From contig JAPLNL010000092.1 of assembly GCA_026692905.1 (NCBI GenBank), positions 1 to 64,000 on the forward strand: a stretch of DNA of 64,000 nt. The letters run 5' to 3'. The stretch comes from Planctomycetota bacterium. GTDB taxonomy: Bacteria; Planctomycetota; Planctomycetia; Pirellulales; Pirellulaceae. The notes beneath the pieces are model-generated. The model searched no databases, had not been told where the DNA came from, and saw only the letters and a program-made list of their open reading frames with translations. Of the stretch, positions 25,095 to 47,435 are shown in pieces (the stretch's first letter is position 1; each line of letters opens with the position of its first letter). The position numbers and the translations under genes are program-made.

Positions 25095-26492
25095 CTATTC
25101 CGGTATCAACTCCAAGCATACGACTTTGCCTTCACTACGAACGTATAACAGGCCATGCGAGAGGGCAGGTGGCGCCCAGCTCGGTGGCCTCAACAGGGGC
25201 TTGCCGTCCCTGGAGTCTCGTATCTGATCCAATTCCATTTGCGCCAAAACGGTAAGTTTATCCTTATTCAACTCAAGCAATTGCAAAGAACCCTCTTCCC
25301 CGAGCAAAATCAAATGATTGTCGACAATCAATCCCGTCATGCGATCATGATTTCGCTTGGTCCATTTCACTTCGGGGGTCCAACTGCCAGCCTCGACAGC
25401 AGCTTCGTTTAGGAGCAGACAACGCAAGTCCGTGTCCGGTTGATTGCGGCCACTGCTACCAAAGAGAACGTTTCCGTCTAGCATTGGGGTCGACCAATGG
25501 GACCGCATGGCCTTGTTTTTGATTCCTGTTCCATCTATCCAAATCGGTTTTAGTTCCCTGTCGGTCAATGATAGCAAAGCGCTTCCTCGCTCGTATGCCT
25601 CGGAGATGAAAATTCGATTTCCCCATACGACTGGAGAAGCCGCGTTGACGCTTTCTTGGATCGAAGCTCTCCAGGGGAAAAATCTCATGTTCGAACCGTC
25701 GCTCGGGTCAAACGCCATCAGTCCTTCGCGAACCAAAGACAAACAAACATCGCGACCGTCGATTGAACGAACGATCGGCGCTGAGTAGCTTGCCGAGTAG
25801 TTGCCAACGCGATAAAGTTCTTTGCCAGTAGCCTTGTCAAAAGCGACCATGGCGGTTCCGTTGGGTCGTGAGGCTTTGCTACCGCCAATCATCACCAGGA
25901 GCTTGTCCTGGTAGACAAGCGGAGAAGCTCCAACGCCAAAAAAATTCTGCTCGACATTGTAGATTTGGTCCGTGTCGAGTTTCCAAATTGGAGCCCCATC
26001 GGAAACAGATATGCAAGCCAGCGTACCAGCCACCCCGAAAACATAGACGCGATCGCCATCCACAACAGGGCTGCAGCGGGGGCCATTGTTGTAGCCATAA
26101 GCGTCTCGATACTGCACGGGGGATTCCCATTTCCAAATCGGTTTTCCGGTCTCTGCATTGAGGCAACTTAATCGCTCAACGTCGCCATACCTATCGAATT
26201 GAAACCAACGACCGTCGGCTGCCACACCATTTCCGTAGCCCATTCCCGTGTCCGCAGTCCAAACCACTTTGAGACCGGATTTTGGCCACTCGGTCAGGAT
26301 TCCAACTTCGGAGCTGCGAGAATCGTAATTGGGGCCAAGCATCCTCGGCCAATCCATTCCATTCTTTCGCGTCCACAGTGATCCCGTTTCCTGAACCGAA
26401 GTAGGAGAATGGGTGTCCGCTCCACAACCCGTTGTGGTCGCTAGCGAAACGGCGAAAAGAAAGGGTAAAATTGAGATCGAAAAACGACGCAT
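25095..26492 (-). CDS. PQQ-type beta-propeller lipoprotein
   Basis: The 465-residue protein starts with a lipoprotein signal (MRRFSISILPFLFAVSLATTTGC, lipobox-like TTGC), so it is probably membrane-anchored outside the cytoplasm. WPRMLGPNYDSRS opens the propeller, and blade motifs include CLNAETGKPIWKWESP, CISVSDGAPIWKLD and AFDKATGKELYRVG. It is convergent with the related protein at 23538 and divergent from arfB, 20 bp away. It shows no dehydrogenase residues. BamB-like scaffolding or substrate binding is possible. Confidence 0.9.
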   Translation of the reverse strand: MRRFSISILPFLFAVSLATTTGCGADTHSPTSVQETGSLWTRKNGMDWPRMLGPNYDSRSSEVGILTEWPKSGLKVVWTADTGMGYGNGVAADGRWFQFDRYGDVERLSCLNAETGKPIWKWESPVQYRDAYGYNNGPRCSPVVDGDRVYVFGVAGTLACISVSDGAPIWKLDTDQIYNVEQNFFGVGASPLVYQDKLLVMIGGSKASRPNGTAMVAFDKATGKELYRVGNYSASYSAPIVRSIDGRDVCLSLVREGLMAFDPSDGSNMRFFPWRASIQESVNAASPVVWGNRIFISEAYERGSALLSLTDRELKPIWIDGTGIKNKAMRSHWSTPMLDGNVLFGSSGRNQPDTDLRCLLLNEAAVEAGSWTPEVKWTKRNHDRMTGLIVDNHLILLGEEGSLQLLELNKDKLTVLAQMELDQIRDSRDGKPLLRPPSWAPPALSHGLLYVRSEGKVVCLELIPE

Positions 26493-31088: not shown

Positions 31089-31142
31089 GTAGCTGGATTC
31101 GCCAGTATTCAGCTTGTTGTGAATTCTGGCGAATCCAGCTAC
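31089..31142. repeat. Family E inverted repeat
   Basis: GTAGCTGGATTCGCCAGTATTC and GAATTCTGGCGAATCCAGCTAC form a near-perfect palindrome. A diverged copy is at 54276-54328. The rest of the 302-bp gap up to nadC shows nothing else; an upstream in-frame ATG inside this repeat is not a credible start. Confidence 0.9.
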
Positions 31143-31331
31143 GGTAGTTTTCTTTCCGCCGTCCGCCCTAGGGGCTGTTTGATAGGGAAATATTGGGGAG
31201 AATCGAGGTTTCCAACTCGAAAACGGGCGAAGGCTCGGTTTCTCAAGTCTCCCGCTTCGATACACTATACGATTGCGACCGAATTGACCAGTATCGCATC
31301 CTCACTTCAGGAACGTATTTCAGGGTTCAGC

Positions 31332-32258
31332 ATGCCGACCGACTACCGCTCACAAACGATTGATGCTGCGTTGCTAGACGATTTGTCACATCTGGTGCGG
31401 CTTGCGATTCGGGAGGATCTCGATCGAACAGGCGATCTCACGACCTTGGCTTTGGTCCCACAGGGAATACAGGGTTCTGCCGTGATTTTGCCTCGTGTGG
31501 CAGGTGTGGCTGCTGGTGTGGAGTTGATCGAAGCCATACTGCAGGAGTTGGATTCACCGATCACTTGGACTCAGCATTTGGGGGACGGCGAGCGATTCGA
31601 ACCCAAGCAGCCGATTGCGACTCTGGCAGGAGAGACTCGCGATTTACTGACTTGCGAGCGAACCATTCTGAACTTTCTCGGTCGGCTCTTTGGAATCGCA
31701 ACTTTGACGAGCCGATACGTTTCCGAGATCGAAGGAAGCAAGGCTCGTGTTTACGATACTCGCAAGACGACGCCGGGTTGGCGCCGACTAGAGAAGTATG
31801 CGGTTCGATGTGGCGGCGGTCGGAACCATCGTTTGGGTTTGTATGACGGCATCTTGATCAAGGACAATCATCTTGCATGCCGAGCCTCCAAGGATGGGCG
31901 GTTGCTCGATCCGGGAAAGGCCGTGGAGATCGCTAAAAGCTTTTTGGTTAGCGGTGCTTATCGATTTGAGGCTCCGCCTATGATTGAGATCGAGATCGAT
32001 CGCGTTAGTCAATTGGAGTCCGCGTTGAAAGCGTTTCCAGACATTGTGTTGCTCGACAACATGAATTGCGATCTTTTGAAGGAATGCGTAGAGATACGGG
32101 ACCGTATGGCACCTTCGGTTGAATTGGAAGCTTCTGGCGGCGTCAACTTGGCCACCATTGGCAACATTGCGTTAACCGGTGTCGATCGAATCAGTGTGGG
32201 AGCCCTCACACATTCGGCCATCAATTTGGATTTAGGGCTTGATTGGATATTGAACTAA
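31332..32258 (+). CDS. nadC: Nicotinate-nucleotide pyrophosphorylase (carboxylating)
   Basis: NadC makes nicotinate mononucleotide from quinolinate and phosphoribosyl pyrophosphate in NAD synthesis. The 308-residue protein has REDLDRTGDLTTLALV near the N-terminus, CERTILNFLGRLFGIATLT, YDTRKTTPGWRRLEKYAVRCGGGRNHR with the substrate-binding Arg/Lys/His, and LYDGILIKDNH. It ends in EASGGVNLATIGNIALTGVDRISVGALTHS. I chose ATG 31332 (MPTDYRS); earlier in-frame ATGs fall in repeat sequence. The stop shares one base with the start of ppk2 (TAATG). Confidence 0.96.
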   Translation: MPTDYRSQTIDAALLDDLSHLVRLAIREDLDRTGDLTTLALVPQGIQGSAVILPRVAGVAAGVELIEAILQELDSPITWTQHLGDGERFEPKQPIATLAGETRDLLTCERTILNFLGRLFGIATLTSRYVSEIEGSKARVYDTRKTTPGWRRLEKYAVRCGGGRNHRLGLYDGILIKDNHLACRASKDGRLLDPGKAVEIAKSFLVSGAYRFEAPPMIEIEIDRVSQLESALKAFPDIVLLDNMNCDLLKECVEIRDRMAPSVELEASGGVNLATIGNIALTGVDRISVGALTHSAINLDLGLDWILN

Positions 32259-33139
32259 TGGCGAAACACAACTTTGAGGCAAAGAAATTTCGAGTCAAAG
32301 AGGGAGAGTCCATCAAGCTCAGCAAGATCTCGACCAGGGCGGGCAATGAACTTGTCAAGAAAGCGGATGGCATCGAGGCGTTGAAGGACGACAACACAGC
32401 ATTGCAGGAGGCCCAAAATCGTTTGTTTGCTGGCGGGCAACGATCTTTGCTCGTGATCTTGCAGGGGATGGATGCATCCGGAAAAGACGGAACGGTCAGT
32501 CATGTGATCAACGGCGTCAATCCGCAAGGAGTTCGGATCTACAGTTTTCGTGCTCCAAATACGGAAGAAGTTCAGCACCATTTTCTGTGGCGCCCGATGC
32601 GATTTTTGCCTTCACGCGGCATGATCTCGATCTTCAATCGATCTTATTACGAAGAGGTCATGGTGGTGCGCGTCCACCCGGAGTTTCTTGGCCCGCAAAA
32701 TTTGCCTCCGTTCAAAAAGCCGATGGATCTTTGGAAGCAACGCTACGAGGAGATTCGGGTTTTTGAGCAAACGCTGGTTCACAGTGGAACGAGCGTACTC
32801 AAGTTCTACTTGCATGTTTCTAGAGAGGTACAAAAGACGAGACTGCTTGAGCGGCTAACGCAGCCGGAAAAGCGATGGAAGTTCAACGAGCGGGACTTAG
32901 AAGAGCGCAAGCTTTGGGAAAAGTACGAAGAAGCCATCGAAGATGCGTTGCCAGCCACGAGCAGGAAATCGACTCCTTGGTACATTATACCAGCGGACGA
33001 CAAATGGTATGCTCGAGCTGCGGTGGCTGACATCATCGCAGGTCATTTGGAGTCGCTCGATTTGCAGTATCCGAAAGTCTCTCCGGAAGACGAGGCTAAA
33101 TTCGCATTGCTTGCAAAGCAGCTACAAGAGCAGGAATAG
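32258..33139 (+). CDS. ppk2: Polyphosphate kinase 2 family protein
   Basis: PPK2 enzymes transfer phosphate between polyphosphate and nucleotides. The 293-residue protein has Walker A GMDASGKDG (residues 70-78), the lid-type FLPSRGMISIFNRSYYEEVMVVRVHPE segment that replaces Walker B, and FYLHVSREVQKTRLLERL. This form resembles the TIGR03709 group (polyphosphate:nucleotide phosphotransferases), so it may make ADP/ATP from AMP; that is inference. It starts on the nadC stop (TAATG), so the two are probably translationally coupled. The link to NAD synthesis may be nucleotide supply. Confidence 0.94.
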   Translation: MAKHNFEAKKFRVKEGESIKLSKISTRAGNELVKKADGIEALKDDNTALQEAQNRLFAGGQRSLLVILQGMDASGKDGTVSHVINGVNPQGVRIYSFRAPNTEEVQHHFLWRPMRFLPSRGMISIFNRSYYEEVMVVRVHPEFLGPQNLPPFKKPMDLWKQRYEEIRVFEQTLVHSGTSVLKFYLHVSREVQKTRLLERLTQPEKRWKFNERDLEERKLWEKYEEAIEDALPATSRKSTPWYIIPADDKWYARAAVADIIAGHLESLDLQYPKVSPEDEAKFALLAKQLQEQE

Positions 33140-33361: not shown

Positions 33362-36300
33362 ATGTTACGTCGCAAGTTTCAAATCATTTGGACTGAAGAA
33401 ATGCAAAACCAACGGATGGGTTCCTCAATTCGATACCGAGCCGAGATCGTATTCGTTGCGTTCTTGGCTGTAATGGCGACCCAGTCAGGCCAATCGATTG
33501 GTCAAGTTGGCAGGCCACGTCCGCGGATGGCTCAGCTGAGCATGGAGGTAGCGTTGATGTCAGCCCCGCGCGAAGTCATGGTGCTCTTGGACGAAGCCGA
33601 GGAAGGCATCAAAAAAGAGCAATGGGGGGAAGCAACCTTTGCCTTAGGGATTTTGCTCGGGCTTGAGGAGTCACGCCAAGCGGACCTCACCGGCGCGGAT
33701 TTCTTCATTCTCGATGAATACGTTCCGATCGGGCCGGGTGAGATTCCCAAAATACCTGGTCAGCAGGTGCCGGGGCAACTCGCTCCGGTTCAACCGCCAA
33801 AGCAACCCGAGGCCAAGACGTTGAACGGTTCGAGGTCGACGGTTTTCAAACGCGTTTATGAGCTCATCGAATCGCTCCCAATTGAAGCGACCAAGATCGT
33901 GGATTTGCGGTACGGAACCCAGGCTGAGCAGTTGTTGGAAGATGCGATTTCTCATTCGGACTGGGAGCGGGTCGCTTCGGTTGCGAGTAAATATGGGTTT
34001 ACAAGCGCTGGTCAAGATGCGAGCGTGATTCTGGGCCAGCACTGGCTTCGCAAAGGGGACGCACGACGGGCCTCGCGCTTGTTTAGCAAAGCGTTCCGAC
34101 AAAGGAGTGCGGCGGAGAGGTATGGTCCTGAGCTTGGAATCCTCGCAGCCTCAACTCTTTACAGTGCTGGAATGGAGTCGGAGGCATTGAGTGTTTTTGA
34201 GTCGACACGGACGCAATTCAAGCAAGGCGAGTTCAATTGGAAAGGAACGAAGGTCAGTTGGGATGGGCGGTCGTTGCTTTCGAAAACCGATTTTGACAAA
34301 ATCGAATTGTCCGGTCAGCAGTCCATCGAGCGGGTCATCAAACAGCCATACTATCAAAGTGGAATCGCAACTCGGAATGCAGACACCAATGCGGGGATTC
34401 CACTGCCTTTCTTGTCGTGGCATGCGGAGCTCCATGAGTCGGAACCTCACAAAGAGAATCTCGAACTAACGCTCAAACAAAAATTGCCAGATGGTCGATC
34501 GAGCCTTATTCCATCTAGGTACCCGATCAGTGTGGGACCGTGGATCATTACATCGACGTACGACCAGCGGATCGTTGCAATCGATGCGTTAACGGGAGTT
34601 CTGCGATGGAAGTGTGACTACAGCGGGATGCCGATGGGCTTTGCTATGGATCGGTACCTTGGGCGTGATGGCCATTCCTATAACTTGCCAGCACCTGACT
34701 ATCTTGCCAAGCGGGTTTGGGGAGAAACGCTGCTGGGAGGTATTTCGAGTGACGGGGAGCGAATCTACAACATTAGTGAAATGCCTGCGTTTGACATTGC
34801 GGAGAGTTTTGCGCTTGGTCCGAATGCTCGAGTTTCGAAACCCAAAGGAACGCCAAGTTACAACGTCTTGCAATGTTGGAGCGTGAGAGACGAAGGGCTT
34901 GCGAAATGGGAAGTGGGGGGACAAAAAAGCACAACGGAACCAAAGCTTTCTGGTACGTTGTTTCTTGGTGCTCCGCTTCCACACGAAAACGAACTGCTTG
35001 TGCTTGGCGAGTTAAACAGCGATCTCTTTTTGCATAGCATCGAGCCGGAAACTGGCAAGCTGCGATGGCGACAACCGCTTACGACAAATTACGGCACCCT
35101 GGCCAACGACCTATTGCGCAGAAGCACTGGTGCGGTCCCGGCTGTCGACGGTTCCATCGTCATCTGCCCAACCCTCTCGGGCTATTTGGTTGCGTATGAC
35201 AAAGCTAGTCGCTCGATATTGTGGGCGTTCAAGTATCCGATTCGACCGGACCTATCCACATCCAACCAGGCGAGTGCCTTTGGTGGCCAAATGGATTTGG
35301 CTGACTTGTCCCCACTGACGCCGAGGTCCGCCGACAATTCGGTCGTCATCAGCGACGGAGTTGTGCTTTTTGCCCCCGCCGACGGACTTGACGCATATGG
35401 TATCCAGATCGAAGACGGCAAGTTGCTTTGGAAGCTCAGTAATTCTAGCAATGCTCCAATACGCTACATTGCGGGAGCTTGGGACAATACTGCCGTAGTT
35501 GTGTGTCAGCAGTCGGTGGTGGCGGTAGATCTCAAGAGCGGCAAGAGCAAGTGGCCGAAGATCGATTTCCCTGAATCGCAACAAGTCATCGGCCGTGGCG
35601 TGCGAAAGCAGGGAACGTATTTGGTGCCGATTTCCGGTCAAAAGATATTGCAAATAGACTTGCTTAAGGGAACGTTGGCAGACTCCGTGCGCGTCGAGCA
35701 GCCGCTAGGGAACTTGATTTCGGTTGGCGATCGTTTGATATGCGCAACGCCGTTCGAGTTGGATTGTTATTCGGTCCGTGAAGCCTTTCAGACTCAGCTG
35801 AAAGATGAGCTTCAACGCAATTCGACTTCGGTCTCGGGGCTTGCTCGCCAAAGCGAATTGGCGTTGGCCAAAGAGGACTTTGATGGTGCGTTAGATTACC
35901 TTGAGCAAGCTAGGAAGATTGATCCAAACAATTCGGATGTTATTCTTTTGATCAACAAGGCTGGGATGGCTGCTTTGACTGCGGACTTTGACAAATACGC
36001 CAGTCGTGTAGACCTATTGGGCAATCTTGTTGTTGATAGGGACAAAGCTCCTTATCTTCGGTTGCTCATCAAGGGATTTCAGAATCAGGGGCGAAACAAG
36101 GAGACATTGGCAACTTTGTTTGAAATGTCTCATTTGCGAACGTCTCAACGACAGGAACAAATGTCCGGGGTTGCAAATATTGAATTGTCCTCGCAATGGT
36201 CGATCCAAGAGGACCGATGGATTTCAACTGAGTTTCGCAATGTGATACCCAAACTGACCTCGAAGGAATTGGAGGACCTGAAGCCACAAATCGCGTTGGA

Positions 36301-38191
36301 AATAGAATCGATGCGGACCTTGCCGTCCCATGTGCGAAGGGTCAAACTTCAGCATTTTGATTCCATTCCCGAAACGGAGGCGATAAGACTGGAATCAGCC
36401 AAGACACTTGTTTTGCAAAGGGATTTATTGCAAGCGGAGCGGATGTTGGCTTCAGATCATTTGTTCGATGCGGCGAATTCCAGCGGCATGGATGCGTCTG
36501 CTCGCCGCGACATCTTGGCAAGTATTTACGTTCGCAACAAGCGTTACGACTTGGCTGCAAAATATGTCGATGAGGTACGATTCAGAGAACTTGTTCGTGA
36601 TTTGAGTGGAGTGCCCAAGGACGGGTTGGTTTTGCCTAAGGCTCCAGCCGCGTTAACCACGCCAACCAAACTTCTCTCCGAGTGGCCAACGGGCAAAGTG
36701 AATGTGTCGGTTGAGCAAAGCGAAGACGTGCCGCTGAACCGGGCAAATCGAATGGACCCGACAACATCCTGTAAGTGGAAGACAAGAATTGGCGACGCAC
36801 TTTCCGGTTGGGAGATCAAGTCGTCAGGAGTGAATGTTGTCTTTACGAATTCTTCGAGCGACATGACCTTTCAGGTTTACGTCGATGCAGGAAATCAAGA
36901 CAAATTTGTGGTTCCTACAGTTCATTCCGTCGACAGTATCGTTCTTCTCGAAGTCAACCGGCAAATCATTGCGGTTGATACCCTAGCCGGTTCGATGCGA
37001 GAGCAAGAGAGCGATTTATGGCGTCAGCAATTTGATTTGGAACTGCCCGAAATCGAAGGAACTCGGGGGCAACGAAGTTGGGGATTACCAAACAACAAAG
37101 GGTCATTCAAGGTTGCGTCCGTTTCCCGGAGCGGCATTGTCGTCTTATCAGACGATGAGCTGATTTGCTGCGATCTTATCACGGGCGCGAAGATTTGGAC
37201 AAGAAAAGGCTTTAAGGGGTGCAGCTTTGTTTCGGAGAGCGAAACGCTTTTGGTCCACGATCCGAAGAGTCGTTCCGTTCTTAAGCTGGATGTGCGTGAC
37301 GGAGCAACCTTGAGCCAGATTCCGCTGGAGGGAGAAGGCGGCCCTGCAGTCGCTTCCATTGGACGCTACTGGTTGGTTAGCAGCGATGCGCCTAAACAGC
37401 TTGGGCTCAAACTGGTTGATTCAAACGACGGCAAAGTTGTATTTAGTGGTGAGTTTACGTCTTCTGCAAAAGTAGCTTTGGATGGGGAAGCAGGCGTAAT
37501 CATTCTCAAGGAAGGTGGTGAATTGACTTACTGGAATTTAGTCGACAGAAAAGAATTTGTGCGCAAGATTGACATCGACTCGAAATTCAGGCAAGTTTCC
37601 GTTCAGCGTTTTGGCGAAACGATGTTGGTGATGCTCGTCGGAATGGAAAAAGAACCTGTGAAGCCGAAAATCAGTCCGGATGCGAGCGATCCCAATTTTG
37701 TTCCCGTCTCTGGTCGTGTTCATGCTCTGTCGGCCAAGGATGCTTCCGACGTTTGGCCGCAAAGTTCGTTTGTTTCCAACTTCTCGTTCCCGATCAATCA
37801 GATAAGGAATTCGCCCGCGGTGGTTTTTGTGCGAATGTTGAATTTCAGTCGTGTGGCAAATGCTGCCAGTATTGACTGCATGTCCATTGCGGTTGTGGAT
37901 ATTCGGAACGGTAGGGTGTTGTTTAGCAGTGATGAAATTCTTCCAGCGACTCGCGGTCTTCCTTTTGCACAGGAGATTTTGGCCGACGAAAACACGATGA
38001 AGATCGATTATTCGGGTGCGAGTGTGGAATTGAACTGGACGACAACTGCTGAATCAGAAGAGCCGGTTTTTGACTTTGGGAATTTTCAATACGCTGATTT
38101 GAAAAAGAGAATCGAAGCAAGAATCTTGGGCGCTAAGCCTGCTGCTGACTTGCAGCCACCTCCGTCGTTCGAGTCCGCACCTGATAAATGA
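33362..38191 (+). CDS. Giant PQQ-propeller / TPR protein, probably exported
   Basis: The protein has 1609 residues and no recognised enzyme motif. It has one N-terminal hydrophobic segment (EIVFVAFLAVMATQSGQS), a helical region (about 55-320), a first propeller (about 390-820) with PQQ-like blades such as VAIDALTGVLRWKCD, SIEPETGKLRWRQPL and VAVDLKSGKSKW, a TPR-like stretch (EDFDGALDYLEQARKIDPNN, about 840-1080), then a second propeller (about 1135-1600) with CDLITGAKIWTRKG. ATG 33362 gives a 20-residue cytoplasmic N-terminus; ATG 33416 would give a cleaner signal. The 3' end overlaps the kinase gene by ATGA. Confidence 0.88.
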   Translation: MLRRKFQIIWTEEMQNQRMGSSIRYRAEIVFVAFLAVMATQSGQSIGQVGRPRPRMAQLSMEVALMSAPREVMVLLDEAEEGIKKEQWGEATFALGILLGLEESRQADLTGADFFILDEYVPIGPGEIPKIPGQQVPGQLAPVQPPKQPEAKTLNGSRSTVFKRVYELIESLPIEATKIVDLRYGTQAEQLLEDAISHSDWERVASVASKYGFTSAGQDASVILGQHWLRKGDARRASRLFSKAFRQRSAAERYGPELGILAASTLYSAGMESEALSVFESTRTQFKQGEFNWKGTKVSWDGRSLLSKTDFDKIELSGQQSIERVIKQPYYQSGIATRNADTNAGIPLPFLSWHAELHESEPHKENLELTLKQKLPDGRSSLIPSRYPISVGPWIITSTYDQRIVAIDALTGVLRWKCDYSGMPMGFAMDRYLGRDGHSYNLPAPDYLAKRVWGETLLGGISSDGERIYNISEMPAFDIAESFALGPNARVSKPKGTPSYNVLQCWSVRDEGLAKWEVGGQKSTTEPKLSGTLFLGAPLPHENELLVLGELNSDLFLHSIEPETGKLRWRQPLTTNYGTLANDLLRRSTGAVPAVDGSIVICPTLSGYLVAYDKASRSILWAFKYPIRPDLSTSNQASAFGGQMDLADLSPLTPRSADNSVVISDGVVLFAPADGLDAYGIQIEDGKLLWKLSNSSNAPIRYIAGAWDNTAVVVCQQSVVAVDLKSGKSKWPKIDFPESQQVIGRGVRKQGTYLVPISGQKILQIDLLKGTLADSVRVEQPLGNLISVGDRLICATPFELDCYSVREAFQTQLKDELQRNSTSVSGLARQSELALAKEDFDGALDYLEQARKIDPNNSDVILLINKAGMAALTADFDKYASRVDLLGNLVVDRDKAPYLRLLIKGFQNQGRNKETLATLFEMSHLRTSQRQEQMSGVANIELSSQWSIQEDRWISTEFRNVIPKLTSKELEDLKPQIALEIESMRTLPSHVRRVKLQHFDSIPETEAIRLESAKTLVLQRDLLQAERMLASDHLFDAANSSGMDASARRDILASIYVRNKRYDLAAKYVDEVRFRELVRDLSGVPKDGLVLPKAPAALTTPTKLLSEWPTGKVNVSVEQSEDVPLNRANRMDPTTSCKWKTRIGDALSGWEIKSSGVNVVFTNSSSDMTFQVYVDAGNQDKFVVPTVHSVDSIVLLEVNRQIIAVDTLAGSMREQESDLWRQQFDLELPEIEGTRGQRSWGLPNNKGSFKVASVSRSGIVVLSDDELICCDLITGAKIWTRKGFKGCSFVSESETLLVHDPKSRSVLKLDVRDGATLSQIPLEGEGGPAVASIGRYWLVSSDAPKQLGLKLVDSNDGKVVFSGEFTSSAKVALDGEAGVIILKEGGELTYWNLVDRKEFVRKIDIDSKFRQVSVQRFGETMLVMLVGMEKEPVKPKISPDASDPNFVPVSGRVHALSAKDASDVWPQSSFVSNFSFPINQIRNSPAVVFVRMLNFSRVANAASIDCMSIAVVDIRNGRVLFSSDEILPATRGLPFAQEILADENTMKIDYSGASVELNWTTTAESEEPVFDFGNFQYADLKKRIEARILGAKPAADLQPPPSFESAPDK

Positions 38192-39900
38192 GAATTAGCT
38201 CGCTTCCGCGTTATTACCGCAATCTTCGTCGGTGGCAAGAGATCATCGTTGTTTTGCGGCGTTACGGCCTGGCTGATTGGCTTAGCCATTTGCGAGTCGA
38301 CTTTATTCGCGATTGGTTAAAGGATGATCAAGGAGTTCCGCTCTCAAGCTACTCCAGAGAAGCCAGGGTAAGAATGGCTTTAACCGATCTTGGGCCTACT
38401 TTTATTAAGCTTGGCCAAGTTCTATCGCTTAGGCCTGATTTGGTCGGTTCGGAACAAGCTGCTGAGTTGCAGCAATTGCAGTCGCAAGTTCCTGCGGATT
38501 CGTTTGCTAAGATCAAGATGGTTGTTGAAGCGGAGCTTAAAATTCCAATCGATCAGGCTTTTTTGGAGTTTTCCGAAAGCTGTATCGCTTCCGCTTCGAT
38601 TGGGCAAGTGCATGCAGCAAGACTGATTGATGGAACGCAGGTCGTCGTCAAAGTCCAGCATGTCAACATTGAGGCCAAGGTACACGAAGATCTTGAGGTG
38701 CTTCGTGGATTGGCCATGCTAGCGGAACGAATTCCCGAATTTGCGGTCTGGCAACCACGAGGAATCGTGGAGCAACTTTCCCGATCGCTTAAGCGTGAGC
38801 TGAGTTTTTCGCGTGAGCTTTCCAATTTGCTCATGTTCCAGTCGACGCTTAAGGACTGTCAGGGAGTTGTTGTTCCTCACGCTTATCCCAAGCTTTCGAC
38901 AGCGAGAGTACTCACGATGGAACGTGTGGAGGGAGAGTCCATTAACTGTCTTGGATCGTCCGATGCGCTCATTGGAGTCGATCGAAACTTGATTGCAAGA
39001 CGTGTCTCTGAGCTTTACGTGCAATCCATCTTCATTCGTGGGCATTATCACGCAGATCCGCATCCCGGGAATATCTTGGTCCAAGAGGACGGAACGATCG
39101 CAATTCTAGATTTTGGAATGGTCGGTCGAATTGATGACTCGCTTCGCGGCACGATTGAAGAAATGCTATGGGCCGTTTTGCAGCAGGATTCGGCCCTTTT
39201 GACTTCTCTGATCAAGCGCGCGGGCAAGATTCCGGCATCGATCGACGACGCGCAATTGTCGAACGACGTGGCAGACTTGATCGCAACCTACGGGTCGCAA
39301 CCGCTCGACTCATTGGACTTGAGTGGAGCGCTCAACGATGCGACAGACATCTTGCACCGTCATCGGATTACATTACCGAGTCAAATGGGAATCCTCATTA
39401 AGACTCTTGTCACGCTTGAGGGCACTCTTCGATTGACTTCGTCGAGTTTTAGCATTCTGCAAGCGATCCAGCCCATGATGGGGCAGCTGAGTCGATACCG
39501 ATTTTCACCGCGTCGGCACGCGAGGCGGCTTAGACGAATGTATGTCGAGTTCGAGGGTTTAGTGGAACGCTTGCCCTCTCAGATCAGTTCTCTAATGGAG
39601 CTTGTTCAAGAAGGAAAGCTGGATGTTCAGTTATCCCACCGTGGGCTTAGTCCGTCCATCAATCGATTGGTGCTTGGATTGTTGACGAGTTCCCTTCTGC
39701 TTGGCTCTTCCATTTTGATGGCTTCAAAAGTTCCTCCGTTGCTTTTTATGGAAGGTGGGCCGCTTGGATTAAAGGACTTATCGCTCTTAGGGGTTGTTGG
39801 ATTCGTCATCAGTACTTTAGTGGCATTCCGGATACTGTTGGCTATCAATAAGTCAGGACATCTTGACCCAACTGCGGATGAAAACGATTCGAACTTGTAA
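38188..39900 (+). CDS. ABC1/UbiB family atypical kinase
   Basis: This family (UbiB/ADCK) has a protein-kinase-like fold and is needed for isoprenoid quinone synthesis or lipid handling; its real substrate is debated. The 570-residue protein has the KxGQ motif (FIKLGQVLSLRPDL, Lys74-Gln77), the Ala-rich loop ASIGQVHAARL, the VKVQHVNI lysine strand, DPHPGNILVQEDG with the catalytic region, and LDFGMVGRI (DFG). Two hydrophobic segments at the C-terminus (near 490-515 and 525-550) anchor it. It starts inside the stop of the giant PQQ protein (ATGA), indicating coupling. Confidence 0.95.
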   Translation: MRISSLPRYYRNLRRWQEIIVVLRRYGLADWLSHLRVDFIRDWLKDDQGVPLSSYSREARVRMALTDLGPTFIKLGQVLSLRPDLVGSEQAAELQQLQSQVPADSFAKIKMVVEAELKIPIDQAFLEFSESCIASASIGQVHAARLIDGTQVVVKVQHVNIEAKVHEDLEVLRGLAMLAERIPEFAVWQPRGIVEQLSRSLKRELSFSRELSNLLMFQSTLKDCQGVVVPHAYPKLSTARVLTMERVEGESINCLGSSDALIGVDRNLIARRVSELYVQSIFIRGHYHADPHPGNILVQEDGTIAILDFGMVGRIDDSLRGTIEEMLWAVLQQDSALLTSLIKRAGKIPASIDDAQLSNDVADLIATYGSQPLDSLDLSGALNDATDILHRHRITLPSQMGILIKTLVTLEGTLRLTSSSFSILQAIQPMMGQLSRYRFSPRRHARRLRRMYVEFEGLVERLPSQISSLMELVQEGKLDVQLSHRGLSPSINRLVLGLLTSSLLLGSSILMASKVPPLLFMEGGPLGLKDLSLLGVVGFVISTLVAFRILLAINKSGHLDPTADENDSNL

Positions 39901-44177: not shown

Positions 44178-46253
44178 ATGGATTTTTGGACCAAGCTATT
44201 CCTGCGGCACCGACATGCCATCGTTCCAATTGGAATTATTGCTTGCCTAGTCGTCATTTTGGTCCCACTCCCACCTGCGTTGCTGGACGTGCTGTTGTCC
44301 GCAAACATTGCGATCGCGGTCGTCATCCTCTTGACCACGATCTACATCGAATCTCCTCTCGAATTTAATATTTTCCCAGCGATGCTCGTAGCGACGACGC
44401 TTTCCAGGCTGGTCCTCAACTTGGCAACGACTCGACTGATTTTGACTCGGACGGGCACCGAAGGAATCGACGCGGCGGGCCATGTGATTCAAGCTTTTGG
44501 CGAATTCGTGTCCGGGGACTCGCTCGAGGTCGGTATTGTTCTATTCATCATCATCTTTTTGATCAACTTCATCGTTATCACCAAGGGTGCGTCTCGAATC
44601 GGCGAAGTTGCCGCTCGATTTGCATTGGACGGAATGCCTGGTAGGCAAATGGCCATCGATGCCGACTTGACCGCAGGGGCAATCGATGAAAAAGAAGCCC
44701 AACGCCGTCGAGAAGAGGTTACCAAACAAGCGGACTTCTACGGTTCAATGGACGGTGCTAGCAAATTCGTCCGGGGTGACGCTATTGCTGGTATCGCCAT
44801 TACGCTTCTCAATATCGTGGGCGGGCTCTACATGGGCTACATGTACTCGGGAATGACGCTCTCCCAAGCGGCAAACGTCTATACAAAACTCACGATCGGT
44901 GACGGTCTTGTTAGCCAAGTGCCAGCATTTTTGATTTCGTTGGCAGCCGCGTTGCTGACGACCCGTAGCACGCAGAAGTCCGACTTCTCAGGCGAATTCC
45001 TGCGTCAAATCTTTTCGCGACCTCAAGCCCTGATCATCTCGGGCGTATTCTTACTTTTGATGACTTTCACTCAATTGCCGGCGGTGCCGATGGTCACGAT
45101 GGGTGGCGGGTGCATTGGGCTAGCGATCATCATGCAACGTCAGAAAAGAGAAGATGCCAAGGTCGTCGAAAAGAAGGGGAAGGATGCGGAGATAGCAAAA
45201 AAGGCGCCGCTTGAAAAGAAAGTCGAAGACTACCTCGAGGTCGATCCATTGCGGCTCGAATTGGGAGCCAAACTGATCGTTCTGGCGGATCCGAATCGCG
45301 GCGGCGACCTGATGAAACGGATCTCGACGGTGCGCGCTACGTTGGCAACCGAAATGGGAGTTCTGCTCCCAATGGTGCGAATCAAAGACCGAATGAGCTT
45401 GCCCGAGTATGGCTACGAGCTCGAGATGTCCGGCAACCGTATCGCCACGGGAATGCTTAGGCCAGATCGTTTGCTAGCCATTGACACAGGCTTGACCAAG
45501 GGCGCGATCATTGGGGACGAAACCACCGATCCAGCATTTGGGAAAAGAGCGGTTTGGATCGATCCGCGTAATCGCCAACAAGCAGAACTATATGGCTACC
45601 AAGTTGTCGAGTGCGGAGCTGTCCTGGCAACGCACGTTCAAGAGACGGCCAGGAAACATGCCGACGAATTGCTAACTCGCGAGGTCACGAAGCAACTCAT
45701 CGACCAACTCAAGAAGACATCAGCGACCGTAGTGGACGAGTTGATCCCGGGGCAAATGAAGCTAGCCGACGTGCAACAAGTGCTTCAAAATCTGTTGCGA
45801 GAAGATATTCCCATTCGGCAATTGAGCATTATCCTTGAAACGCTTGGCGACTACATCCATCGAATCAAGGACCCAATATGGTTGACGGAATATGTTCGGC
45901 ACCGATTGGCGAGAACCATTTCGCATCGCTATCGTGACAGCACAGGCGTATTGCGAGTGGTAACGCTCGACCCAGCCATGGAGGATAGAATTGCGGCTGG
46001 CACCGAGCAAACCGACCGAGGCGTATTCATCCGCATGTCACCAGACTCCATTTCCAAGACATGCGGTCGAATCGCCGACCAGGTACGAAAACTCGATCAA
46101 CTCGGCAAGCCGCGGTGCATTGTTGTCAGTCCCAAGATTCGTGTCCCGCTTCGCCAAATAACTCAAGAAGCGTTACCGGACCTTCGGGTACTTAGTTACA
46201 ACGAGATTTCGCGTGATACCAGTGTTGAGTCCATTGCAATGGTCAGTGACTAA
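44178..46253 (+). CDS. flhA: Flagellar biosynthesis protein FlhA
   Basis: FlhA is the large gate subunit of the flagellar type III export apparatus; its cytoplasmic domain forms the nonameric ring that selects substrates. The 691-residue protein has eight hydrophobic segments in the first 330 residues. Between them lies the FHIPEP signature region (ASRIGEVAARFALDGMPGRQMAIDADL), then GDAIAGIAITLLNIVGGLYMG. The cytoplasmic part has LELGAKLIVL, LVEYVRHRLARTI-type helices and the end NEISRDTSVESIAMV. It is followed 27 bp later by flhF, the usual order. Confidence 0.97.
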   Translation: MDFWTKLFLRHRHAIVPIGIIACLVVILVPLPPALLDVLLSANIAIAVVILLTTIYIESPLEFNIFPAMLVATTLSRLVLNLATTRLILTRTGTEGIDAAGHVIQAFGEFVSGDSLEVGIVLFIIIFLINFIVITKGASRIGEVAARFALDGMPGRQMAIDADLTAGAIDEKEAQRRREEVTKQADFYGSMDGASKFVRGDAIAGIAITLLNIVGGLYMGYMYSGMTLSQAANVYTKLTIGDGLVSQVPAFLISLAAALLTTRSTQKSDFSGEFLRQIFSRPQALIISGVFLLLMTFTQLPAVPMVTMGGGCIGLAIIMQRQKREDAKVVEKKGKDAEIAKKAPLEKKVEDYLEVDPLRLELGAKLIVLADPNRGGDLMKRISTVRATLATEMGVLLPMVRIKDRMSLPEYGYELEMSGNRIATGMLRPDRLLAIDTGLTKGAIIGDETTDPAFGKRAVWIDPRNRQQAELYGYQVVECGAVLATHVQETARKHADELLTREVTKQLIDQLKKTSATVVDELIPGQMKLADVQQVLQNLLREDIPIRQLSIILETLGDYIHRIKDPIWLTEYVRHRLARTISHRYRDSTGVLRVVTLDPAMEDRIAAGTEQTDRGVFIRMSPDSISKTCGRIADQVRKLDQLGKPRCIVVSPKIRVPLRQITQEALPDLRVLSYNEISRDTSVESIAMVSD

Positions 46254-46280
46254 ACGGTTCCTAGAGTCAGGAATTTTCTA

Positions 46281-47435
46281 ATGAACAAGCCCATCCGTAT
46301 CAAAACCTTCCGCTCGAAAACGCTTCAGGAGGCATTTCAAAAGATCAGAGCCGAGTTTGGCCCAGACGCATCGATTTTGGAAACGAAAACATCGAGGTCC
46401 GGGCTCTTTGGCCGCTCGCGAATCGAGGTCACTGCAAGTTCCCAAACCAATGCATTCGAGCTCGACACTACGGAATCGATTCAAAACGACACCCTCGCGC
46501 CGTCTGAAGATCATGATCGGCTGAAATCGCGAAGGGACGGCGAACCTGAAATCGAGGCTTTAGAACGCACTGATGATTCTACCGGCACGGAAGCCGAATT
46601 CTCAAGTTCACGCTTAACTCCAGAAGCGACCAGCGAATTTGCTGCCCCTGAGCGAGTGTTAGGGCAAGTGTATCAAGAGTTGCTTCATGCCGGCATCGAT
46701 CCTGGTATAGTAGGGCAATGGATCGATACGGCTCGTGTGTTGGACAATGCCGCGGTAATGAAAGACGTTTGGACCTTGCGATCGGAATTGCTGGGCTGGA
46801 TTCGCGATTTGGTCCATGCCGCTCCGCCATGGAACCTCGAAGACTCGCGTCAACAAGTGCTTGCATTTGTCGGTCCACCAGGGGCAGGAAAGAGCACAAC
46901 TCTTGCAAAGATCGCCGCTTATTTGTCGATGGAGTTAGGTTTTTCTGTCGGCGTTCTGACAACGGACAACAAGCGACTCGGCTCCAATTTTCTATTGCAC
47001 AACTACGCGGACATACTGGGATGGAAATTTGAAGTCGCGGAAATGGAAGACCAAGTACCGTCTTGCATGTCCAATTTGTCCAGTTGCCGTTTTGTCCTGC
47101 TGGACACAGGTGGATGCTCACCGAACGAAGAAGAATCCTTGGAGCAACTGGGGCAAATTCTGGCGATGGTCAAGCCGAATGAAACGCATTTGGTTCTATC
47201 GAGCACTTGCAATGTTCGAACGTTTTTGCGTTATGAGCGGGCGTTCGAGCCTTTGGCTCCGAATCGATTGGTTTTGACTCGGCTGGATGAATCGGGGGGC
47301 TTAGGCCCACTTTTTTCGTGTTTGCAAAGCAGTGGTCTTCCGGTCAGTTTTCTAGCGGATGGTCAGAAGATACCCGCCGATTTGATTCAAGCGACCGAGT
47401 TGCGATTGGCTCAACGAGTCATGGACGTCGCTTAG
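46281..47435 (+). CDS. flhF: Flagellar SRP-like GTPase FlhF
   Basis: FlhF is an SRP-type GTPase that sets flagellar position and number. The 384-residue protein has an N-terminal basic domain (KTFRSKTLQEAFQKIRAEFGPDASILETK), a long variable linker and the NG domain. G1 is GPPGAGKSTTLAKIAA; G2-like TTDNKRLGS replaces TTDTYRIGA; G3 is LLDTGGCSP where DTAGR is usual; G4-like TRLDESGGLG replaces TKLDE. The changes at G2 and G3 may alter GTP hydrolysis. AGGAAT lies before ATG 46281. It follows flhA directly. Confidence 0.94.
   Translation: MNKPIRIKTFRSKTLQEAFQKIRAEFGPDASILETKTSRSGLFGRSRIEVTASSQTNAFELDTTESIQNDTLAPSEDHDRLKSRRDGEPEIEALERTDDSTGTEAEFSSSRLTPEATSEFAAPERVLGQVYQELLHAGIDPGIVGQWIDTARVLDNAAVMKDVWTLRSELLGWIRDLVHAAPPWNLEDSRQQVLAFVGPPGAGKSTTLAKIAAYLSMELGFSVGVLTTDNKRLGSNFLLHNYADILGWKFEVAEMEDQVPSCMSNLSSCRFVLLDTGGCSPNEEESLEQLGQILAMVKPNETHLVLSSTCNVRTFLRYERAFEPLAPNRLVLTRLDESGGLGPLFSCLQSSGLPVSFLADGQKIPADLIQATELRLAQRVMDVA

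Follow-up and report, generated by a model that had tools for sequence, protein, structure and literature searches.

In a 64,000-nucleotide stretch of DNA from a Planctomycetota bacterium of the family Pirellulaceae (assembly GCA_026692905.1, contig JAPLNL010000092.1, positions 1 to 64,000; hereafter the window), a gene encoding a protein of 1609 residues, referred to below as the giant, overlaps the start of a gene encoding an ABC1/UbiB-family atypical kinase-ATPase. The preliminary description of the locus took this overlap as a sign of a joint envelope function, and the question examined here is whether the two genes form a conserved partnership and how far any such partnership extends. The pair proves to be real, genus-wide and of single origin. 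Outside the genus the two genes were not found side by side in the giant neighbourhoods sampled, and the association of the giant with loci that encode MoxR-type AAA+ ATPases is a more telling lead than its partnership with the kinase.

Conservation of the giant-kinase pair

An open reading frame (ORF) scan bore out the size of the giant, the positions of the two genes and their overlap by the sequence ATGA, as originally described (Table 1). The genus to which the window belongs is composed of Pirellula-like metagenome-assembled genomes (MAGs), the nearest named relatives of which are Pirellula-like or Planctomycetaceae MAGs; on our reading of names such as 'pond', the genus is a freshwater one. 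The kinase was matched in 26 of the 27 genus genomes searched, and in each of the 26 the giant gene lies directly upstream. When all of these loci were oriented to the same strand, the junction was an overlap (-4 nucleotides) in 22 genomes and a short gap in the other four (+1, +3, +3 and +4 nucleotides). Flanking genes, by comparison, are mostly not shared. The nadC, PPK2 and HrpB genes that flank the pair in the window did not turn up in any genus stretch; one close relative (G136) has two more distant genes in common with the window and two other genomes have one each, and three mutually close genomes have neighbours in common among themselves. The pair is retained while its surroundings change, and since every kinase-bearing genome of the genus retains it amid flanks of this kind, a chance junction is rejected. 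Despite the linkage, identity falls to ∼35% for the giant and 68% for the kinase. The two genes probably constitute a genus-specific unit with coupled translation.

The distribution of both genes was then read across 149 genomes of the family by means of single-sequence queries, with few candidates scored per genome, for which reason gene absences may be overcounted. A tally of the two lists gave 123 genomes with both genes, 12 with the giant only, 10 with the kinase only and four with neither. For the family outside the genus, 34 giant neighbourhoods were read, and in none of them is the kinase near the giant; they were drawn from the 128 genomes of this group in which the giant was matched, best-scoring first and then mainly from long contigs. 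Where a genome from outside the genus carries the two genes on a single contig, the nearest spacing seen by eye was ∼26 kb (G112). Inspection by eye of 20 kinase neighbourhoods from outside the genus revealed no neighbour common to all, with sharing confined to small clades. Hence the adjacency on which the preliminary description had staked its proposal holds throughout the genus but was not seen in the neighbourhoods sampled beyond it, and the idea of a giant-kinase partnership of general occurrence is not upheld.

The giant and MoxR loci

Genes encoding MoxR, DUF58, BatA-type and large VWA proteins follow the giant on the same strand in 13 of the 34 non-genus family loci, and the gene families of this locus type were confirmed on one of them (L080). 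Conversely, the MoxR query found nothing in any of the 20 kinase neighbourhoods, which served as the background set. In order to extend the comparison beyond the family, a profile was built from 40 giants, the alignment having left out one (L066) that is cut by a contig end. The profile matches 65 of 294 phylum-level genomes at a threshold of 1e-30; 45 matched genomes lie beyond the class, 24 of which were fetched, and 16 are class genomes of the set labelled f3, of which nine were fetched, yielding 16 loci. MoxR and DUF58 genes occur near the giant in 17 of the 24 loci from beyond the class, with the giant standing first or last. The families were confirmed on L197, and the VWA protein and the giant on L204; four loci (L191, L208, L211 and L212) are short stretches in which absence is weak evidence. 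All 16 f3 genomes have two giant-profile matches each, with open frames of ∼1500 codons or more.

A MoxR-type locus is not found beside the giant in the window or in its genus. Instead, all five genus stretches examined (e.g. contig C26 of the window's own genome, G000) carry an intact orthologous MoxR-DUF58-BatA-VWA locus with no giant gene in it; these five stretches and the 26 genus genomes described above appear to overlap in part (e.g. L138 and L139), and the counts are not additive. In the closed genome G105 the start of the MoxR locus is at ∼4.03 Mb and that of the giant at ∼0.59 Mb. A single MoxR query has 12 matches at E ≤ 1e-20 in the window's genome, which so has many MoxR paralogues, with one close orthologue of the giant-linked MoxR type (81% to G059).

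The history of the linkage was examined with a tree of 41 giants, L066 included. The seven kinase-linked giants form one clade with a Shimodaira-Hasegawa-like approximate likelihood ratio test (SH-aLRT) value of 100, which indicates one relocation followed by strict retention. As sister to this clade stands the giant of genus g59, which is MoxR-linked, the MoxR-DUF58-BatA-VWA arrangement being retained beside it. Elsewhere, MoxR-linked giants occur at scattered positions in the tree. The simplest account of this pattern would be an old association with MoxR that was lost repeatedly, together with the one relocation to the kinase; the tree alone is also compatible with repeated gain of the MoxR linkage in place of repeated loss.

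MoxR-VWA, or Bat-like, loci are widespread, and their work is poorly understood. The planctomycete loci resemble the Bat loci of Bacteroides and Leptospira in that they have a MoxR-type AAA+ protein, DUF58, the BatA N-terminal domain, VWA and, in many planctomycetes, an adjacent TPR-bearing partner. They differ in that the TPR partner is a giant, mostly of ∼1400-1900 residues and with two propeller-like regions, and in that it has left the locus in the genus of the window. Passages of a study of Leptospira propose a complex of VWA and TPR Bat proteins, with moxR within the same gene cluster (PMC3557215). Another parallel is offered by the MoxR-vWA-beta-propeller ternary systems, which, in passages of Kaur et al. 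(2020; PMC7159879), are present in planctomycetes and combine MoxR and vWA proteins with a third component, located close to the membrane, in which TPR and beta-propeller regions occur. However, the P-loop reads GVPGLAKT in four of four MoxR proteins here, as opposed to the GXXXTAKS that those passages give as frequent, and DUF58 and BatA are present at the giant-linked loci. A scan of VWA and BatA-type proteins encoded at L080, L197 and L204 gave no propeller family, such as would mark a vWA protein with a C-terminal propeller. Giant-linked MoxR proteins do score above the cut-off of 27 bits for PF20030 (38.7, 45.3 and 30.7 bits), but far under their scores for AAA_3 (214.5, 210.7 and 213.2 bits). 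No publication on the giant or its locus was found in the portions searched of the literature on planctomycete MoxR, UbiB and propeller proteins.

Anatomy of the giant and the kinase

The giant comprises, in order, a signal-like N-terminus, helices, a BamB- or PQQ-like propeller (PQQ, pyrroloquinoline quinone), a TPR-like stretch and a second propeller, in agreement with the architecture first proposed, although the parts are not equally well marked. The first propeller is identified by a PQQ_2 match over cut-off (4.6e-23, residues 558-754), whereas TPR_2 falls marginally below its cut-off (26.9 bits against 27; 4.2e-6, residues 827-857), and designed TPR chains are among the matches to the giant-family profile. 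The second propeller has no Pfam match over cut-off and is suggested by weak BamB-type matches together with the predicted structure of residues 790-1609, in which helices are followed by strands over the ranges listed in Table 1 (predicted local distance difference test, pLDDT, 66.5; predicted template modelling score, pTM, 0.61). The model of residues 46-900 is poor (pLDDT 52.3, pTM 0.35), and its fold matches consequently carry little weight. BamB tops the fold-match lists of both halves, with low TM-scores, and the giant shares the BamB type of propeller; it differs from BamB in having two propeller-like regions plus helices within 1609 residues, and in scoring far below the cut-off of the BamB equivalog TIGR03300 (37.8 against 285.2). 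The hydrophobic stretch close to the N-terminus suggests that the giant is probably exported. A start at ATG 33401 or 33416 is likelier than the called start, because an MQNQRMGS-like beginning recurs in relatives and the codons upstream of it do not; the alternative start shifts the size by fewer than 20 residues.

Table 1. Features of the two-gene unit and its products in the window.
Feature	Coordinates	Strand	Details and basis
Giant propeller-TPR-propeller gene	33362-38191	+	1609 codons as called; ORF scan, Pfam
Putative signal peptide of giant (hydrophobic segment)	33425-33481	+	Residues 22-40; inferred from hydropathy scan
N-terminal helical region of giant	33842-34216	+	Residues ∼161-285; low-confidence model
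First BamB/PQQ-like beta-propeller of giant	34526-35746	+	Residues ∼389-795; PQQ_2, modelled strands, BamB fold matches
TPR-like helical region of giant	35765-36604	+	Residues ∼802-1081; TPR_2, predicted helices, designed-TPR matches
Second beta-propeller-like region of giant	36698-38038	+	Residues ∼1113-1559; predicted strands, BamB fold match
Overlap of giant stop with kinase start	38188-38191	+	ATGA
ABC1/UbiB-family atypical kinase-ATPase gene	38188-39900	+	570 codons; PF03109
Two predicted C-terminal membrane segments of kinase	39667-39840	+	Residues 494-512 and 533-551; hydropathy scan

The kinase belongs to the ABC1 family (PF03109; 1.3e-64, 218.2 bits against a cut-off of 22.9), and COQ8-type and ABC1 chains are its nearest solved structures by sequence. 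It carries the family motifs KxGQ, an A-rich loop, HxDxHPGN (as HADPHPGN) and DFG; across the 26 genus kinases, KxGQ and DFG are present in 26, HxDxHPGN in 25 and the A-rich loop pattern in 14. The two hydrophobic C-terminal segments accord with the membrane anchorage ascribed to it at the outset. In these respects (domain, motifs and paired C-terminal segments) it is like the UbiB/COQ8/ADCK kinases. It differs from them in that its score lies under the cut-off of the UbiB equivalog TIGR01982 (352.7 bits against 487.55), in that its genome is of the menaquinone type, and in that its gene overlaps that of the giant. UbiB-family relatives are thought to act on coenzyme Q or on lipids, according to passages of PMC10376127. 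The window's genome has a single match to its own kinase. Second ABC1-family copies, ∼40% identical, occur in G146, G455 and G458 (L240, L241 and L242), with no giant match within the ∼1500 bases or less of flank that surround them.

The window's genome encodes menaquinone genes of the futalosine type, with two matches over cut-off to PF02621 (the MqnA/MqnD family). No match over cut-off to the ubiquinone hydroxylase TIGR01988 was found in this genome, which is 95.95% complete, and UbiA, the sole other ubiquinone gene family searched, gave three matches. We read the organism from these genes as one that uses menaquinone, and since the kinase also falls under the UbiB equivalog cut-off it is probably not a classical ubiquinone UbiB. 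A role in ubiquinone synthesis is rejected on the MqnA/MqnD-family matches and the TIGR01988 result. Thus, the link to quinone biology drawn in the preliminary description is unlikely to hold for ubiquinone, while genes for menaquinone are present.

Possible basis of the coupling

The favoured explanation is as follows. In the stem of the genus, the giant gene would have left its MoxR locus and come to adjoin the kinase gene, after which the ATGA junction would have fixed co-translation, with ribosomes that finish the giant starting the kinase. Genes of the giant family frequently share a locus with those for MoxR (an AAA+ ATPase), DUF58, BatA and a large VWA protein, the products of which may together form a Bat-like inner-membrane machine; the MoxR and VWA proteins would work from the cytosol and the membrane, and the giant, on the periplasmic side, would serve that machine as a scaffold for assembly. 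The membrane-anchored, cytosol-facing UbiB-type ATPase would handle a lipid of the isoprenoid class, which is probably menaquinone or one of its precursors. Since both proteins would act at the same membrane, it is proposed that the genus benefits from a fixed proportion of giant to kinase. A joint envelope role is plausible, and any contact between the two proteins is at present putative. We give this reading as a whole, i.e. a genus-specific coupled unit in which a scaffold of a MoxR/VWA machine is paired with a kinase that handles isoprenoid lipid, an even chance of being correct.

Several observations weigh against it. Both structure models of the giant are weak, and the giant and the kinase are predicted to face different compartments. 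With regard to the MoxR context, the four-gene locus stands beside the giant in none of the 16 loci from the nine f3 genomes, the nearest approaches being a MoxR-like gene that adjoins the giant (L185), a divergent MoxR-DUF58 pair at ∼7 kb (L175) and a MoxR-like gene at ∼5 kb (L189). Many matches from outside the class are partial, with the PQQ propeller predominating, and some may for that reason be propeller proteins of other lineages. Finally, retention of the pair may reflect only the loss of the kinase promoter and dependence on the overlap.

The last of these points amounts to an alternative explanation, in which a rearrangement placed the kinase behind the giant without any shared function; the junction would then be unbreakable because the kinase, no longer having a promoter and start context to itself, could be made only when the giant is translated. 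A single origin in the giant tree, the absence of the pair from the other genera sampled and the occurrence of either gene alone in the family would all be expected on this account. A Shine-Dalgarno-like tetramer upstream of the kinase start in only 3 of 26 genus genomes is in keeping with it as well, but such sites are rare at these genes in any case (3 of 20 non-genus kinase starts, against 22% of random 17-mers from the window), and the scan is therefore uninformative and does not separate the readings. Duplication or a new promoter could, moreover, have freed the kinase, yet none of the 26 pairs is broken while the flanks have turned over. We regard this explanation as possible, if somewhat short of probable. 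A general module in which the giant and a UbiB-type protein act on quinones or lipids in the envelope finds some encouragement in the genus-wide coupling and in the lipid roles described for the kinase family elsewhere (in the passages of PMC10376127 referred to above). It is rejected as a module of general occurrence by the 34 non-genus neighbourhoods without a kinase and by the genomes of the family in which one gene is matched without the other (12 and 10 of 149), and survives only at the level of the genus; as an explanation we consider it improbable. The repeats of PQQ type in the giant could also be taken to denote a quinoprotein dehydrogenase, the cofactor or electron acceptor of which is served by the kinase. 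However, the giant is under the cut-offs of both PF01011 (25.4 against 26.7) and TIGR03075 (21.5 against 480.05), on which basis a quinoprotein enzyme is rejected, and it is BamB that leads both fold lists; this explanation appears very improbable indeed.

The scaffold reading may be taken further. In its most far-reaching form, the giant would be an undescribed periplasmic subunit, in much of the phylum, of a MoxR-DUF58-BatA-VWA machine that turns cytosolic ATP hydrolysis into the assembly of envelope proteins or lipids, with a UbiB-type kinase recruited to this machine as a second ATPase in the window's genus for the movement of menaquinone or another isoprenoid lipid and its dose set by the coupling of translation. 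We think this unlikely as it stands. A probably exported protein encoded beside MoxR loci in many planctomycete lineages would offer a way to approach what lies across the membrane from the ATPase. The move of the giant to a UbiB-type ATPase in this one genus constitutes a natural experiment, and if it is functional, both types of ATPase would serve a common envelope task. The kinase, for its part, presents a case of UbiB-family function in what appears to be a menaquinone organism.

As regards the surroundings of the pair in the window, nadC (31119-32258) and PPK2 (32243-33139) lie upstream of the giant gene and overlap by 16 bases as called, with ∼100 residues of nadC preceding its first Pfam domain; HrpB lies downstream of the kinase gene, on the opposite strand. 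At a distance of 7 kb from the giant, the minus strand encodes a second, smaller PQQ_2 propeller protein of ∼465 residues (25095-26492). At 44178-47435, FlhA is followed by an SRP54-type GTPase, which by its position we take to be FlhF-like.

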